From Verrucomicrobiia bacterium (GTDB lineage Bacteria; Verrucomicrobiota; Verrucomicrobiia; Verrucomicrobiales; DEV007): a DNA stretch of 33,258 bases. A program made the translations under genes and the position numbers. Of the stretch, positions 7,622 through 27,221 are shown in pieces. Each line of letters opens with the position of its first letter. Position 1 is the first letter of the stretch. The notes beneath the pieces were generated by a model, which ran no database searches, was not told the DNA's origin, and saw only the letters and a list, made by a program, of their open reading frames with translations. The stretch spans positions 1 to 33,258 of the forward strand of contig JAUICH010000041.1 in NCBI GenBank assembly GCA_030427505.1, read 5' to 3'.

Positions 7622-8692
7622 TTAGGGCAGGGCGACCACCATGCCTTCGTCCAGAGAGTGGACGCCGCGGCTGACCACCGTTTCGCCCGGTTCCAGGCCG
7701 CTTAAGACTTCGATGTCGCCCTCGCCGCTCAGCGCTCCGGTGGTCACCACGCGCTTTTGCACGGCCACCGTCCTGGCATCCGCTTCCGGAGCGACGACCC
7801 ACACGTAGTTGTCCCCTCCCGGCGCGCCCACCACGCAAGCCGCTGGAATGCGAATCGCTTTGCCTTTCGGGTTGGGCAAGGTCAGGGCGCATTCCCCATC
7901 CATACCGGCGCGCACGGCGGGGTTGGCGCTCGCTTCGGGCGAAAAGGTCAGGATGACCGGGTAAGTCCCATTGTCCGCCACGTCCGGAGAGATCTCCGTG
8001 ATCTTGGCTTCGAAGGTTTCTTCCGGGAGCGTGCGCAGGCTGACCCGGCCGCTGACGCCCTCCTTCAAAGCGCCGACATTTTCCGCCGGCACGCCGATCT
8101 CGAATTCCTTCCCGGACTCGCCCTGGATGGTCATGACTTTCTCACCGGAGGAAACCACTTGCTGGGCTTCGATGCCGATGGTGCCGATCACGCCGTCGTA
8201 GGGCATTTTCAGTGAGCAGTCTTCCAGGGCTTTCCTGGCGTTTTCGAAGCTGGCTTCGGCGGAGGCTTTACTGGCGGTGGCGCTTTCCACGTTGCTCAGA
8301 CTGGTGTTGCCGGAGGCGTAGAGCTGATTCACGCGGCTCAGTTCCTGTTTCGCGTTCGTCAGGCTGGCCTCCGCGCTGTTCAGTTGGTTGCGGTAGCTGG
8401 TTTCGTCCACCTTTGCGAGGACGGTACCGGCTTCATAGCGGGTCCCTTCCTTGGCGTTCACCGCCACGACCCGTCCGCCAGATTCAAAGGCCAGGGCCGC
8501 GCCTTCCGCCGTTTCCACCTGGCCGGTGTAGCGGCGTTCGATGATGGCGGAGGGAGCGGGCACCTCCACCGTGAGTACCGGCCGGGGTGGCGCGGGCGCG
8601 ACGGGGGCTTCCTTGCCGCATCCGGTCAGCCCCGCCAAGGCGGTCAGGAGACTGGCCGAGAGGGCAACGAAGGGGATTGGTTTTGGAATCAT
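7622..8692 (-). CDS. RND efflux periplasmic adaptor (membrane fusion protein), lipoprotein
   Basis: A 356-residue adaptor of the HlyD/AcrA type that bridges the inner-membrane pump and the outer-membrane factor. The start is the ATG at 8692: it gives a lipoprotein signal with lipobox LTGC (Cys25), so the mature protein should be lipid-anchored. A longer reading from a GTG at 8731 would destroy this signal and overlap the upstream gene. Domain order: first lipoyl half around GGRVVAVNAKEGTRYEAGTVLAKV, a helical hairpin (~90-150), second lipoyl half around MPYDGVIGTIGIEAQQVVSSG, a beta-barrel, and a membrane-proximal domain at the C-terminus. The upstream outer-membrane gene ends two bases before this start and the pump follows, so the three are surely co-transcribed. 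Confidence 0.95.
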   Translation of the reverse strand: MIPKPIPFVALSASLLTALAGLTGCGKEAPVAPAPPRPVLTVEVPAPSAIIERRYTGQVETAEGAALAFESGGRVVAVNAKEGTRYEAGTVLAKVDETSYRNQLNSAEASLTNAKQELSRVNQLYASGNTSLSNVESATASKASAEASFENARKALEDCSLKMPYDGVIGTIGIEAQQVVSSGEKVMTIQGESGKEFEIGVPAENVGALKEGVSGRVSLRTLPEETFEAKITEISPDVADNGTYPVILTFSPEASANPAVRAGMDGECALTLPNPKGKAIRIPAACVVGAPGGDNYVWVVAPEADARTVAVQKRVVTTGALSGEGDIEVLSGLEPGETVVSRGVHSLDEGMVVALP

Positions 8693-8694
8693 GA

Positions 8695-11289
8695 TCAGTC
8701 GTTCTTGCGATTTTTCAGAAAGGGGAACCACCCCTTTTTACGGGGCGTTTCGGTGGCTTCATCCTTGGTGGATTCTTCTTTGGCGTCTTCGGCAAAGGGT
8801 GAGTTTCCTTCCGCGTCGAGGACGGCTTCTTCCGCTTCCTCTTGAACCGGGCTGGCGGCCTGGTGCTCCACTGGCACGGCGCCGTTCAGGAAGCGCTGGA
8901 TCAGTTCGCCCATGCTCTGCTTTTCCACGGGCGTCTTTTGGTATTCGAACCAGGCAATCGCGCGCTGCATGCCGTGCACGGCGTCGAGGTAGTCGTAGGT
9001 CGCGGACACCGCTTGTTGCTCCTGGCTTTGCAGGGTGTCTTGGGCGTCCAACAGGTCCAGGATGGATGCCGCGCCCTGGGCGTATTTCTCCTGGGTCGAG
9101 TCGTAGTTCTTCTGGGCGGACTCGAGCGAGATGCGGCTCAGCTTGATGTTCGGAAACGCGCTGGCCAGTTCTTCAAAGGCGACCAGCGCCTGCACCTCGA
9201 TCTGTTCCACGGCCTGTTGCCGGCGGGCGGCGAGCTGGCGGATCTCGCTCTTCTGTTTCAAGACATCCGCCCGGCGGCCGCCTCCGTCGAAAATGGTGTA
9301 GCTGAGCTGCACGCCTACCGTGACCTGATCCAGGCCGTCGATGCCCTCCGTGTCCAACTTGGTCTTGTCGTAGCTGAGGACTCCCGCCAGTTCGGGAACT
9401 GCGAAGCTCCGTTGTTTCTGCCGCAGCAGAATTCCCTGGGCGCTGAGGGCGTGGTCGTAGGAGGCCAGCTCGGGGGAGTTTTCCACGCTGAACCAACGCA
9501 GAAAGGTGCGAAACCGGGAGAACTCGTCCCGGTTGTTCAGGAGCGGCACCAGTTGATCGTCGAGGAAGTAGCTTTCTTTTTCGCCGATCTCGATGTCTTC
9601 CACGCGCCATTCCGTTTCCCGGGGGAGGGCCAGCACGCGGTTGAGCTCGATCAGCTGAATCTGGCGGGCGGAATCGCGCTGAATCAGGGTGGCCTTCCCG
9701 CGCGCCGCGGACTGTTCCCAGCGGTACACTTCCGAGGGTTCCGCGGAGCCGATGTCCACTCGCGTCCGGGCGAGTTGCAGGCTGTTCTCCGTCAGGCGCA
9801 GGTTGTCTTTTTCAATCCGGTACAGGGCCTCCGCTTCCAGATAGCCCAGGTAGGCGCTGGCCGCCGCGTCGATGGCATCCAGGGATTCGGACAGGGTGTC
9901 CAGCCGGGTGGAAGCTTCGTTTTTCCGTTGGGCCTTGAGGGAAGAAAACAGCTCGTCATTGAAGAGGACCTGTTTCAACTCCGCGCCAAAGGCTTCCGTG
10001 TTGGAAAAGTCTGACGAACCGCCGATGGCTCCCGACTCCGGACTGAAGAAAATTTGCTGGCCACCGCCCGGGGAACCGCCGGCGTCGATTTCCGTCTTGC
10101 TGCCCTGGTAGGAAAGGTCCGTGCTGACTTCTGGCAGCAGGTTGCTGCCGATGAGCTTGGTTTCCTGCCGCTGGATCTCCTCTTCTTCCTTGGCGATCAA
10201 GACGCCCGTGTTTTGTTCGGCCGCCCGCTGCATTGCTTCCTGCAGCGTCAGCTTTTCCCGGTCGCTCTTGTAGAATTCGCCAACCAACTCCGCTTCCAGC
10301 ATGACTTCGTAGCTCGGCGACCAGTTGGCGCGCTGGGCCGCGGGGGCGTTGACCAACAGCCGGTCCTGCACCGGTAGCACCACCGGCAGGCTGGTGGTTT
10401 CGGAACCCAGCAAGATGAGGTGGGCGTTCAGGGCCGCCAGGCGGGCCACCTCCTGCACGTTGTCCGGCGCCAGGCCCGCCACGGCGCCCAGCCTTACGTC
10501 TTCCGCGCCCAGCATGGAGACGGTCACGGCTCCGCGGCTGGACAGTCCTTCGTAGAACTGGCGCCGCTCCTCCGCGCTCATCCGGGCCATGATGGGCACG
10601 TAGACCGCTCGCGCGTTTTTGGGAATGCGGCTCAGGGCCGCGCCCGGTCTGGCCGGAATGGGATGGAATTCGATCCGCACGCCAAAGGCTTTCTCAAACG
10701 CTTCCCGGGCCTGGTCGACCCCCGCGATTTCGGGAAACACGATCTCGTCCACCGGCACATGGAGCGTCTTGGCTTCCGTAAGGCGCAGGAGGAGCTGTAC
10801 GTCCGAAGCCACCCGGTTTGGCTCTGAGATCAGAGTATAGTTCGGCTGGGCCGAAGACCCGTCCGCCGTCAGCGGGTGGGTGCGCAGGTCGGAAAACAAC
10901 ACGGCGCCCGCCATCACGGGCTTCGTCCGCTCCGCCTCGGGCATGTGAGCGGCCAGTTCGCTGGAAATCATGCCGGCGGCATAGATCATGTCCACTTCCG
11001 GATCCGCCAGGGCCTCGCGCAACAGCTGAGCAATGCGCTCGGGATCGTGACCGCCGTCGTACCCTTCCTTGACCGTCAGTTCATAACTTTGATTCGCCCG
11101 GGTGCGCAATTCCTTCAGGAAAAGCTCTTCAGCGCGCTGGAAGTAGGGGGAGTCTCCGTCGCGCACCACCGCCAGGGTGTGGGTTTCCTGAGCCTGGGCG
11201 ATTCCGGCGGACCCCAGGAAAGAAAACAGCGCCACGGCCAGGATCAGGCGGGCGGCAAAAAATCGATTCACGAGGATGACGCAATACAT
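8695..11289 (-). CDS. ABC-type substrate-binding domain fused to TolC-family outer-membrane factor
   Basis: An 864-residue secreted protein, nearly twice the usual TolC length. A signal peptide ends near residue 34 (AQAQ-ETH). Residues ~37-340 match the ABC_sub_bind (PF04392-like) periplasmic binding fold, including its closing pattern: LLGSETTSLPVVLPVQDR, then LLVN and a final helix. From ~347 a TolC/OEP region begins with LTLQEAMQRAAEQNTGV; its second repeat contains YTIFDGGGRRADVLKQ and YAQGAASILDLLDAQDTL, as in type I outer-membrane factors. An acidic tail ending in KKGWFPFLKNRKND follows. It is the first gene of the adaptor/pump operon and so the likely exit duct. The binding domain may sense or capture a ligand; this is inference. 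The reading frame is continuous across the join. Confidence 0.92.
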   Translation of the reverse strand: MYCVILVNRFFAARLILAVALFSFLGSAGIAQAQETHTLAVVRDGDSPYFQRAEELFLKELRTRANQSYELTVKEGYDGGHDPERIAQLLREALADPEVDMIYAAGMISSELAAHMPEAERTKPVMAGAVLFSDLRTHPLTADGSSAQPNYTLISEPNRVASDVQLLLRLTEAKTLHVPVDEIVFPEIAGVDQAREAFEKAFGVRIEFHPIPARPGAALSRIPKNARAVYVPIMARMSAEERRQFYEGLSSRGAVTVSMLGAEDVRLGAVAGLAPDNVQEVARLAALNAHLILLGSETTSLPVVLPVQDRLLVNAPAAQRANWSPSYEVMLEAELVGEFYKSDREKLTLQEAMQRAAEQNTGVLIAKEEEEIQRQETKLIGSNLLPEVSTDLSYQGSKTEIDAGGSPGGGQQIFFSPESGAIGGSSDFSNTEAFGAELKQVLFNDELFSSLKAQRKNEASTRLDTLSESLDAIDAAASAYLGYLEAEALYRIEKDNLRLTENSLQLARTRVDIGSAEPSEVYRWEQSAARGKATLIQRDSARQIQLIELNRVLALPRETEWRVEDIEIGEKESYFLDDQLVPLLNNRDEFSRFRTFLRWFSVENSPELASYDHALSAQGILLRQKQRSFAVPELAGVLSYDKTKLDTEGIDGLDQVTVGVQLSYTIFDGGGRRADVLKQKSEIRQLAARRQQAVEQIEVQALVAFEELASAFPNIKLSRISLESAQKNYDSTQEKYAQGAASILDLLDAQDTLQSQEQQAVSATYDYLDAVHGMQRAIAWFEYQKTPVEKQSMGELIQRFLNGAVPVEHQAASPVQEEAEEAVLDAEGNSPFAEDAKEESTKDEATETPRKKGWFPFLKNRKND

Positions 11290-11601: not shown

Positions 11602-12105
11602 TTATCTCGCCTCCGCCAGAATCGAATCGATCTCTGTCCGAAATTCGCCCGCGCTCTGATAGCGGCTGGCCGGATCTGGCTGCATGGATTTCAGGACCAC
11701 GTGGTCCAGGCGCTTGTCGGTGCCGGATCTTTCGGACGGCGGGGCGAAGGCCCCGCGGGGGAGTTCGCCCGTGAGCAGTTCGTAGAACAACACGCCCAGG
11801 CTGTAAATGTCCGCCCGGTGATCCACCGCCCGCCCCTCAAGTTGTTCCGGTGCGCTGTAGGAAGGGGTGCCCAGAACGAAGCCGGCTTCCGTCAGCCCCA
11901 GGGCCAGGGTGGGTGCGCCGCCGTCTTCCGCTTCATGCACCACCTTGGCCAGGCCAAAATCCGCCACTTTCACGGAACTGCCGGGGGTCACGAGGATATT
12001 CGCCGGTTTGATGTCGCGATGAACGAACCCCTGGGAATGGGCGTGGTGAAGCGCCGCGCTAGTCTGGGAGTTGATCTTCAGGGCATTGAGGGATGAGAGT
12101 TCCCC
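11602..12105 (-). pseudogene. Ser/Thr protein kinase, N-terminally truncated (C-terminal two thirds)
   Basis: The kinase-like sequence runs from about GELSSLNALKINSQTSAALHHAH to the stop. It contains the Hanks-type catalytic loop VHRDIKPANIL, the VADFGLAK magnesium-binding motif, the activation-segment end GTPSYSAPEQLEG, and DIYSLGVLFYELLTG. The whole N-lobe is missing: no glycine-rich ATP loop, no VAIK lysine, no C-helix glutamate. The open frame continues to a GTG at 12132, but those residues (MRIFTCSR) are antisense to the sigma-factor fragment and look unrelated. Such a protein could not bind ATP normally, so this is a remnant or an assembly artefact. It stops right at the end of the kinase domain, with no membrane segment or sensor domain after it. 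Confidence 0.85.
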
Positions 12106-12106
12106 G

Positions 12107-12592
12107 GACCGGGAACAGGTGAAAATGCGCACCTTTCTCCTGCTCCGCCTGAAGCGTCACCTGAATGACGTCCGGAAACACAACAATGCCCAGAAGAGGG
12201 GTGGCGGCGTGGAGATCGTTTCGGTGGATGGCGGCGGACTGGGGCTGGCCGCCGCCAGTACCGGTCCGGGACATCGGGTGGAATATGAGTTTGACCGCCG
12301 GTGGACCCAGGCTCTCCTGAACCGGGCGCTGGAGCGTCTGCGCCAGGAAGCCGAACAACGCGACAATGTAGAGGTGTTCGAAGCGCTCAAAGCGCAGCTT
12401 TCCGGGGAGAACCCGGTCCGCCTTCGCGAAGAAGCCGCCCGGCTGGGGCGCTCGGAAGGCGCCCTCCGCATGGCCTTGTCTCGCCAGCGCGACCGCCTGA
12501 ACGCCGTCCTTCGCGAAGAAGTGACCGAAACCCTGGAGCCCGGAGCCGACGTCGCCGAAGAACTCCGTTACCTGGCCCAAGTGCTGGGCTGA
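12107..12592 (+). pseudogene. ECF-like sigma-70 factor, N-terminally truncated
   Basis: About 160 residues match the C-terminal two thirds of the sigma-70-family regulators that accompany Ser/Thr kinases in Planctomycetota, Verrucomicrobiota and Acidobacteriota. Recognisable parts are MRTFLLLRLKRHLND, the NAQKRGGGVEIVS motif, YEFDRRWTQALLNRALERLR, the region-4 helix-turn-helix LREEAARLGRSEGALRMALSRQRDRL, and the end ADVAEELRYLAQVLG. Region 2, which binds core polymerase and the -10 element, is absent. A TTG at 12071 or ATG at 12125 could start a shortened product, but without region 2 it would not act as a sigma factor. Its 5' end abuts the 5' end of the opposite-strand kinase remnant within a few bases. 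Confidence 0.82.
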
Positions 12593-25202: not shown

Positions 25203-27221
25203 ATGTTGGCGGTCGAAAACGTAAGCATCCAGTTCGGCGCGAGAGTTCTCTTCAGCGAGCTTTCGTTCACAGTGAGAGCGCGCGAACGCATGTCACTGGC
25301 GGGGCCCAATGGGGCGGGCAAGTCGACCCTGTTAAAGATCATCGCTGGAATCGAATCACCGGACACCGGCCGGGTAGCTAAACCAAAGCAGGTTACCGTC
25401 GGGTACCTGCCGCAGGAGGGGGTCTACCACTCTGGCACCACGCTTTTCAAAGAAGCGGAGACGGCGTTTGAGGATGTCCTGAAGCTCCAGGCGGAACTGC
25501 GCGAAGTAGAGGCGCAGATGGACGCCATTGAGGACACGGGTTCCGACGAATACGCGGACGCCCTGGAAGTCTTTGGCGACTTGCAACTCCGGCTGGAGCA
25601 CCACGACCTGGCGCGGATGAAGCCGCGTATCGAGACCATCCTGAACGGCCTGGGCTTCAGCCAGGCGGACATGCAAAAGCAGACCGACACCTTTTCCGGT
25701 GGCTGGCAGATGCGCATTGCCCTAGCCAAGCTGCTCCTGCGCGAGCCGAGCGTGCTGCTGCTGGACGAACCGACCAACCACCTGGACATCGAAACCGTGC
25801 AGTGGCTGGAAAACTGGCTGAACCAGTACGGAGGCGCCATCATCCTTATCAGTCACGACCGGGCCTTCCTGGACAACCTGACCAACCGCACCCTGGCTTT
25901 CGAGCGCGGGGACGTGCACGAGTATTCCGGCAACTACTCCTTCTTCCTGCGGGAACGCGACGCCCGGAAGGAACAGCAGGTGCGGGCCTACAAGAACCAG
26001 CAGCGGGAAATCGAGAAAGCCGAAAAGCTGATCAACCGCTTCCGGGCCAAGGCCAGTAAGGCGCGGATGGTGCAGAGCCGCATCAAGCAGTTGGAAAAAG
26101 TGGAGCGCATTGAGCTGGAGCAGGAGCAGACGACCATCGGCTTCAAGTTTCCGCAGCCCCTTCGCAGTGGCCAGACGGTCATTACCCTGGAAAACATTGT
26201 GAAGCGTTACGGCGACAACCTCGTTCTCAACGGCGTCGATTTCGAAATCGAGCGCGAGGAGCGCATCGCCATTGTGGGCGTGAACGGCGCGGGGAAATCC
26301 ACTTTTTCGCGTATCCTTTCAGGGGTGGAAGCCCCCACTAGCGGCACCCGGGAACTCGGGCAGAAGGTGATCGTCTCCCACTTTTCGCAGAACCACGCCG
26401 AAGAACTGGACCCGAAAAAGACCGTTCTGGAAACCGTGGAGGCCGTCGCCACGAAGCAGTCCTCCACCAATTTGAGGACCCTGTTAGGGTCCTTCCTCTT
26501 CCGGGGCGACGACGCGTTCAAGAAAGTGTCCGTGCTATCAGGCGGGGAACGCAGCCGCCTCGCCCTCACCCGCATGCTGCTCCAGCCCGCGAACTTCCTC
26601 ATCTTGGACGAACCGACCAACCACTTGGACATGCAGTCCCAAGAAGTGCTCCAGCACGCCCTGTCCGAATACACCGGCACCTACGTCATCGTTTCCCACA
26701 ACCGGAGCTTCCTCGATCCCATCGTGACGAAGGTGCTGGAGTTCATCCCTGGCCAGAAGCCCCGGGTGTTCCACGGCAATCTCTCCTACTATTTGGATAA
26801 GATCCAGGAAGAGCGGGGGGGCACAACGACTGACAGCGTGGATGCCGCGCTGAGCAGGGCGAATGTGCCGGGCGGTGGTGGCGGCAAGTCCGCCTCGAGC
26901 GGAGCGGGAGCCTCCGGGAGCAGTCGAAAGGAACAGCGCAGGCAGGAAGCCCGGCTCCGGCAGGAAAAGGCGCGCGTCCTGAAGCCCCTCCAGGAAAAGC
27001 TGGAGGCCGTGGAAGCACGCATCGCGGAACTGGAAGAAACTAAGGCGGAACTGACGAAGAAGCTAAGCGACCCCGTGTTCTTTAAGGAAGAAGCCGCCGC
27101 CGCGAAGCTAGCCTCACAAAACTACCACCAGGCGGAACAGGACCTGGAGACCGTCTATTCCCAGTGGAGCACCCTTACTGACGAGATCGAAAAGGCGGAG
27201 GCGAAGTTTGGTGACGACTGA
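25203..27221 (+). CDS. ABC-F family ATPase (Uup/translation-factor type)
   Basis: A 672-residue soluble protein with two ATP-binding cassettes and no membrane segment, as in ABC-F proteins that act on ribosomes. Cassette 1 has Walker A GPNGAGKST (34-42), signature FSGGWQMRIALAK and Walker B VLLLDEPTNHLD. Cassette 2 has GVNGAGKST, LSGGERSRLAL and FLILDEPTNHLD. The basic helical linker between them (RERDARKEQQVRAYKNQQREIEKAEKLINRFRAKASKARMV) is the P-site interaction motif region. After cassette 2 comes a Gly/Ser linker and a C-terminal coiled coil (~565-670) like that of Uup/YdiF. A housekeeping role in translation is likelier than antibiotic resistance, but this cannot be decided from sequence alone. 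Confidence 0.96.
   Translation: MLAVENVSIQFGARVLFSELSFTVRARERMSLAGPNGAGKSTLLKIIAGIESPDTGRVAKPKQVTVGYLPQEGVYHSGTTLFKEAETAFEDVLKLQAELREVEAQMDAIEDTGSDEYADALEVFGDLQLRLEHHDLARMKPRIETILNGLGFSQADMQKQTDTFSGGWQMRIALAKLLLREPSVLLLDEPTNHLDIETVQWLENWLNQYGGAIILISHDRAFLDNLTNRTLAFERGDVHEYSGNYSFFLRERDARKEQQVRAYKNQQREIEKAEKLINRFRAKASKARMVQSRIKQLEKVERIELEQEQTTIGFKFPQPLRSGQTVITLENIVKRYGDNLVLNGVDFEIEREERIAIVGVNGAGKSTFSRILSGVEAPTSGTRELGQKVIVSHFSQNHAEELDPKKTVLETVEAVATKQSSTNLRTLLGSFLFRGDDAFKKVSVLSGGERSRLALTRMLLQPANFLILDEPTNHLDMQSQEVLQHALSEYTGTYVIVSHNRSFLDPIVTKVLEFIPGQKPRVFHGNLSYYLDKIQEERGGTTTDSVDAALSRANVPGGGGGKSASSGAGASGSSRKEQRRQEARLRQEKARVLKPLQEKLEAVEARIAELEETKAELTKKLSDPVFFKEEAAAAKLASQNYHQAEQDLETVYSQWSTLTDEIEKAEAKFGDD

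Follow-up and report, generated by a model that had tools for sequence, protein, structure and literature searches.

What a substrate-binding domain might do on an efflux duct

The opening of TolC-type ducts and their matching to pumps are still debated. The window analysed here (the whole stretch of DNA, 33,258 nucleotides, from a Verrucomicrobiia bacterium) contains a gene in which a periplasmic binding-protein domain is followed, in one frame, by an outer-membrane factor. This raises the question of whether such a fusion is real and, if so, what a binding domain could do on an exit duct.

The features of the gene, its neighbours and related loci are collected in Table 1. The original prediction had described one continuous 864-residue frame at positions 8695-11289. 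These coordinates were correct, the strand, which had not been given, was minus, and the 864 codons read from 11289 to 8695 contained no internal stop. A single-chain structure prediction of the full-length protein gave a mean pLDDT of 84.7 and a pTM of 0.72. The domain limits proposed earlier (about 37-340 and 347-800) were supported by fold alignments, which gave residues 35-337 and 347-785. In the C-terminal extension, the pLDDT was below 50 at residues 842-856 and 858-864. A basic, aromatic tail similar to that of the duct (window 8698-8934, minus strand) was seen in loci L016, L017, L019 and L020 and was absent from many other family members. Residues 398-428 formed a low-confidence insert between two barrel strands, which was longer than in the aligned relatives and is likely an outer loop.

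Table 1. Features of the fusion gene, the adjoining pump genes and the channel-like genes of related loci (window coordinates unless a locus is named).
Feature	Position	Strand	Basis
Fusion gene, 864 aa: binding-protein domain and TolC-type outer-membrane factor	8695..11289	-	Open frame, predicted structure, full-length relatives elsewhere
Signal-peptide-like start, residues 1-34, without lipobox cysteine	11188..11289	-	Reading of the sequence
Class I substrate-binding domain (predicted), residues 35-337, nearest the TrpX/CD0873/VC_1101 group (ABC_sub_bind fold)	10279..11187	-	VIA and profile
Linker, residues 338-346, about 9 residues	10252..10278	-	Gap between aligned ranges 35-337 and 347-785
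TolC-type outer-membrane factor, residues 347-785	8935..10251	-	PF02321 and 1EK9 alignment
C-terminal extension, residues 786-864, basic aromatic tail at end	8698..8934	-	pLDDT and family comparison
Periplasmic adaptor; ATG two bases past the fusion stop; LTGC lipobox-like motif (by eye)	7622..8692	-	TIGR01730, 195.7 bits against 94.9
RND permease, 1019 aa	4534..7593	-	PF00873, 574.8 bits
Channel-like gene	L017:11627-12286	+	
Channel-like gene	L018 from 16261	+	
Channel-like gene	L056:11618-12286	+	
Channel-like gene	L057:2691-3353	-	
Channel-like gene	L072:2363-3016	-	
Channel-like gene	L020:12743-13396	-	
Channel-like gene	L022		
Channel-like gene	L070		
Channel-like gene (fragment)	L058		

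Identity of the two halves

The duct half is a full TolC-type outer-membrane factor with the beta-barrel and alpha-barrel fold, as had been claimed earlier. PF02321 matched residues 347-785 as two stretches, with an E of 3.3e-45 and 154.7 bits (cut-off 22), and the same residues were aligned with residues 1-411 of TolC (1EK9) with a VIA Z of 28.2 and an rmsd of 2.9 over 399 residues; for OprM (1WP1), Z was 27.1. All 24 full-length members matched PF02321 at E<=0.01. The score for the NCBIfam subfamily TIGR01844 was below the cut-off (117.9 against 225.15 bits). The full duct fold is common to TolC, OprM and the window protein, but the window duct, which is encoded beside an adaptor and an RND permease, has a 300-residue binding domain ahead of the position of TolC residue 1.

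Pfam recognised only the duct half in the window protein. Taken alone, this protein did not reach the gathering score of PF04392, and its N-terminal half matched no binding-protein family; the sole domain-level Pfam match of its domain sequence was PF02016 (E 0.065). The fold was more informative. In the whole-protein model, residues 35-337 were aligned with 3LKV with a VIA Z of 25.0 and an rmsd of 3.7 over 288 residues, and Z was 24.3 to 6HNI, 24.1 to 3LFT and 20.3 to the open form 6HNJ, while the binding proteins ranked next reached 16.5. When the domain was modelled alone, the ranking was the same (24.2, 23.6 and 22.9, with 19.8 for open 6HNJ and 16.0 for the next). A profile built from eight relatives found only two solved binding proteins at E <0.1, namely 3LFT (1.1e-4) and 3LKV (0.012), and a profile from sixteen relatives found the same pair (1.4e-4 and 4.5e-4); the profile alignment to ABC_sub_bind proteins covered the C-terminal half of the domain. 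At the family level, PF04392 matched five of eight domain sequences at E<=1 (best 1.5e-10). Residues 35-337 are therefore firmly predicted to be a full class I binding-protein domain, nearer to the solved ABC_sub_bind members than to other binding proteins. The original assignment to an ABC_sub_bind-like domain and the proposed check for a binding-family match of residues 37-340 were thus upheld by fold and family profile, whereas PF04392 gave no match to the window protein alone.

The ABC_sub_bind proteins (PF04392; SP1069/TrpX 3LFT, VC_1101 3LKV and CD0873 6HNI) have this two-lobed class I fold in common with residues 35-337, but they serve an ABC importer, whereas the window domain is joined to a duct and stays below PF04392. 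Genes for an importer permease and ATPase were not found beside the fusion, whose neighbours are the adaptor and the RND permease; among the window frames scanned, the sole ABC_tran match was a two-ABC-domain protein at 25203-27221. Crystals of the three nearest solved relatives contained phenylalanine, tyrosine and tryptophan (PMC6816091).

Occurrence of the fusion

In the family survey, 9 of 74 genomes matched the domain (eight fusions and one non-fusion). The order sample, which was partial, gave matches in 11 of 336 genomes, eight of them being the family members, and the likewise partial phylum sample gave 19 of 387 (16 fusions and three non-fusions). Over all samples, the fusion was present in 26 genomes of the phylum at one locus each, where the split domains of G038 and G065, lying on two stretches, were each counted as one locus. 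One of these genomes matched an Opitutaceae assembly identically (loci L014 and L056), which places this group in Verrucomicrobiota. A scan of genome contigs found one relative, a scan of plasmids found one full-length relative, and a scan of phages found no full-length relative of the fusion. Beyond this phylum, the protein WP_041667226.1 of Sulfuricurvum kujiense (plasmid pSULKU01) is related over its full length, with 24.7 % identity over 88 % of the query. Its architecture is that of the window protein and both Pfam families exceeded their cut-offs, with 38.6 against 25.9 bits for PF04392, yet its annotation reads just 'ABC transporter substrate binding protein'. Among full-length members, PF04392 matched 4 of 24 at E<=0.01; since the domain is missed in the other 20, the architecture is easily overlooked and is usually annotated as one half only.

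In all 26 loci, which come from different genomes, and likewise on the Sulfuricurvum plasmid, the frame was open across the junction of the two halves. This recurrence excludes the concern raised with the original prediction, that an overlooked stop or frameshift separates two genes, and an error of sequencing or assembly that joined two genes was thereby refuted, its remaining probability being negligible. Considering these data, it is nearly certain that the window protein is a real and conserved fusion of a binding domain and a duct. The fusion of L018 (G050:C181) is intact but for one in-frame stop in its duct part, that of L021 changes frame within the binding domain, close to a contig end, and four further copies (L022, L069, L073 and L074) were cut by contig ends.

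Several other candidates, four of them weak survey hits, were rejected as fusions. On reading, the free-standing 402-aa frame of G589 resembled a binding protein on its own; in G371 the frame was tandem and binding-protein-like, with one stop; in G576 no frame could be recognised; and the frame of G001 resembled an LD-carboxypeptidase. A 793-aa frame of L113, considered as a second kind of fusion, was a read-through overlapping the RND frame and had no binding-domain match.

Conservation of the two halves

Over 300 pairs, the mean identity was 32.7 % for the binding domain and 34.0 % for the duct (r 0.906), and the binding domain was the more conserved half in 123 pairs. Judging by these near-equal values, the binding domain is not decaying relative to the duct, and both are equally constrained. 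The full two-lobed binding fold was kept in members down to about 22 % identity. The presumed cleft-lining loops, defined crudely, showed no extra conservation compared with far-side loops (entropy 1.96 against 1.88, p 0.62) or with all other positions (p 0.21). The most invariant positions of the domain include R283, A286 and N288, which lie on a helix outside the tested loops. The conservation pattern therefore does not establish that members of the family share a ligand, or bind one at all, and binding of an aromatic amino acid gains no support from it.

Pump genes and exchange of the engine

The adaptor exceeded the cut-off of TIGR01730 and the permease matched PF00873 with 574.8 bits, in agreement with the RND operon claimed earlier. 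The genes for these two proteins and for the outer-membrane factor lie side by side on the same strand, so that the window locus is, by its predicted gene products, an RND tripartite efflux operon. Adaptor and RND genes adjoined the fusion in 26 of 26 Verrucomicrobiota loci. The fusion was the first gene in 22 loci and the last in four (L064, L065, L067 and L068). In Sulfuricurvum, the neighbours were a HlyD adaptor, an RbbA-like ABC ATPase/permease and an ABC permease, with no RND gene, so that the engine there is an ABC exporter as opposed to the RND permease of the window locus. The proposed check of whether the fusion always precedes adaptor and RND genes thus came out positive for adjacency within the phylum, but neither for gene order in the four loci nor for the plasmid.

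RND relatives at E<=1e-200 occurred in 7 of 74 family genomes, all seven at fusion loci. In a quick tree search without bootstrap, with long-branch warnings and with L021 left out, the 25 partner RND permeases fell into two separate, distant clades of 21 and 4. Because the module is kept across two RND clades and an ABC exporter, the binding domain appears to belong with the duct and not with any one pump, and the module of duct and binding domain apparently outlives changes of engine.

A channel-like gene of about 220 aa adjoined the operon in 9 of the 26 fused loci, the L058 copy being a fragment cut by a contig end. PF07885 matched in five of five tested copies, and the protein carries the motif TTxGYGD, which we take to be K+-filter-like. 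The gene overlapped the RND stop by 4 bases in L017, L018 and L056, and no match to it was found in ten comparison loci (L113-L122). Elsewhere in the window, a Ser/Thr kinase frame (11602-12132, minus strand) lacked its N-terminal part, with the Pkinase profile starting at position 91 of 263, and stood head to head with a frame (12071-12592, plus strand) that reads as sigma-factor-like and had no Pfam match. As we read it, their meeting point may be a rearrangement or an assembly junction.

Unfused relatives of the duct

Of the 387 phylum-sample genomes, 18 carried a duct of the fusion clade (E<=1e-45), fused in 16 and unfused in two. For the two unfused ducts (L130:6955-8481 and L131:6854-8413), there was no binding-domain match nearby; the neighbours scanned included a photolyase-like protein, an amidohydrolase and a dehydrogenase complex, with no adaptor or RND gene among them. 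By reading, these ducts had no lipobox either. As neither adjoins pump genes, the duct can apparently do without the binding domain where no dedicated engine adjoins.

In a first duct tree of 26 fused and nine chosen plain ducts, the fused and plain rows lay on two sides of one branch with a support of 100/99. In a second tree, from which three long plain rows (L115, L118 and L121) were dropped and to which the two unfused relatives were added, L130 and L131 nested among the fused rows (88/67). The fused rows no longer formed one clade, and p-AU was 0.138 for all fused rows as one clade. A loss of the domain in L130 and L131 would rest on two genomes of one genus and is not settled by the tree.

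Probable position of the binding domain and its possible role

In tip-to-tip models, adaptors meet the duct at its tip. In the structure comparison, TolC residue 1 was aligned with model residue 347. In ducts of this type, helix H1 is located in the equatorial ring, at mid-height of the alpha-barrel, and mutations of the equatorial domain affect duct function (PMC8277102). Considering the alignment at 347 and the position of H1, the binding domain should lie on the outside of the barrel, at its equator, and neither within the lumen nor at the tip, which corrects the earlier placement beside the adaptor at the periplasmic side of the duct. Of the roles proposed earlier (gating, cargo delivery and sensing), direct hand-over of cargo into the duct is less likely from this position than regulation, capture nearby or a role in docking.

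The reading to which we give the highest probability, roughly two in five, is a ligand-regulated duct, in which binding of a periplasmic small molecule would alter duct opening or pump docking. We infer every step beyond the identity of the domains. The duct would be a trimer, so that three binding domains would form a collar round the alpha-barrel at the equatorial ring, each tethered to the first duct helix by the linker of about nine residues. Binding of the small molecule would close the clam-shell, and closure, transmitted through the short linker, could shift the equatorial ring and thereby change duct opening or adaptor-pump docking. A periplasmic ligand, possibly the substrate of the pump itself, would then license the exit duct. 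This reading was judged the likeliest because the domain accompanies the duct with all three kinds of engine and is missing from the ducts that have no engine beside them. The fold and limits of both domains, the short linker, the equatorial H1 and the equal constraint on the two halves count for it, as do the nearest solved relatives, which bind Tyr, Phe or Trp (PMC6816091). The lack of special conservation in the cleft loops, with the invariant R283, A286 and N288 outside them, and the origin of the domain-less case from two genomes of one genus in an unsettled tree count against it.

An equatorial addition to a duct has a known counterpart. In the E. coli TolC-YbjP complex, extra protein mass is located at the duct equator (PMC13082787), with three copies per trimer (PMC13095208), and the collar proposed here may be likened to it. 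Unlike the window domain, YbjP is a protein of its own, a lipoprotein of the DUF3828 family (PF12883), and does not represent a binding-protein fold joined to a duct. It is reported to be bound between the TolC equator and the outer membrane, and the authors of that study regard an allosteric or signalling role as unsupported (PMC13082787), which also counts against ligand coupling.

Two other roles are serious rivals to the ligand-coupled duct. The binding-protein fold could serve as a scaffold, independently of any ligand. It would hold the duct in place relative to the outer membrane or to peptidoglycan, or else bring in the adaptor, in the manner of an N-terminal lipid anchor or of YbjP. 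The unremarkable cleft loops, the missing lipobox cysteine of the window protein (by reading) and the reportedly non-allosteric binding of YbjP (PMC13082787) agree with such a scaffold, but the two unfused clade members, which have no domain, are also without a lipobox (by reading), and a full two-lobed fold is retained down to about 22 % identity; we consider this role unlikely. Alternatively, the collar could bind the pump substrate, or substrate leaking back, in the periplasm and so raise its concentration near the adaptor and pump. In importers, binding proteins raise the local substrate concentration. The domain has a fold found in a family of proteins that deliver aromatic amino acids to ABC importers, and an RND pump adjoins all 26 fused loci. 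However, the expected equatorial site outside the barrel would be far from the periplasmic entrances of the pump at the inner membrane, and all three kinds of engine with which the module occurs unchanged would need a common substrate, so that capture appears quite unlikely. It is very improbable that the domain acts as a sensor reporting a ligand to another envelope protein, such as the K+-channel-like protein encoded beside some operons. The adjacency of the channel-like gene and its overlap with the RND gene would suit this role, but the gene is missing at the other 17 loci, although three of these end at a contig end right behind the RND gene, and it is absent from the window, its relative (40 % identity) in the same genome being on another contig.

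Significance

Both halves belong to known families, and their combination is predicted to be a TolC-type duct with a built-in binding domain. In agreement with the original remark that no characterised protein of this design was known, a literature search of partial coverage found no published description of the combination. A whole binding domain at the periplasmic end of the duct, beside pump genes, suggests a duct that may respond to a putative ligand. More broadly, and only as a tentative and rather unlikely proposal, there could be a family of ducts with a built-in periplasmic switch, in which a collar of binding proteins would open or dock the duct solely in the metabolite-bound state, and a single module would have moved between RND and ABC engines. 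This natural joining of duct and binding domain, which persists when the pump changes and is lacking in two relatives without adjoining pump genes, would make ligand control of an exit duct directly testable.
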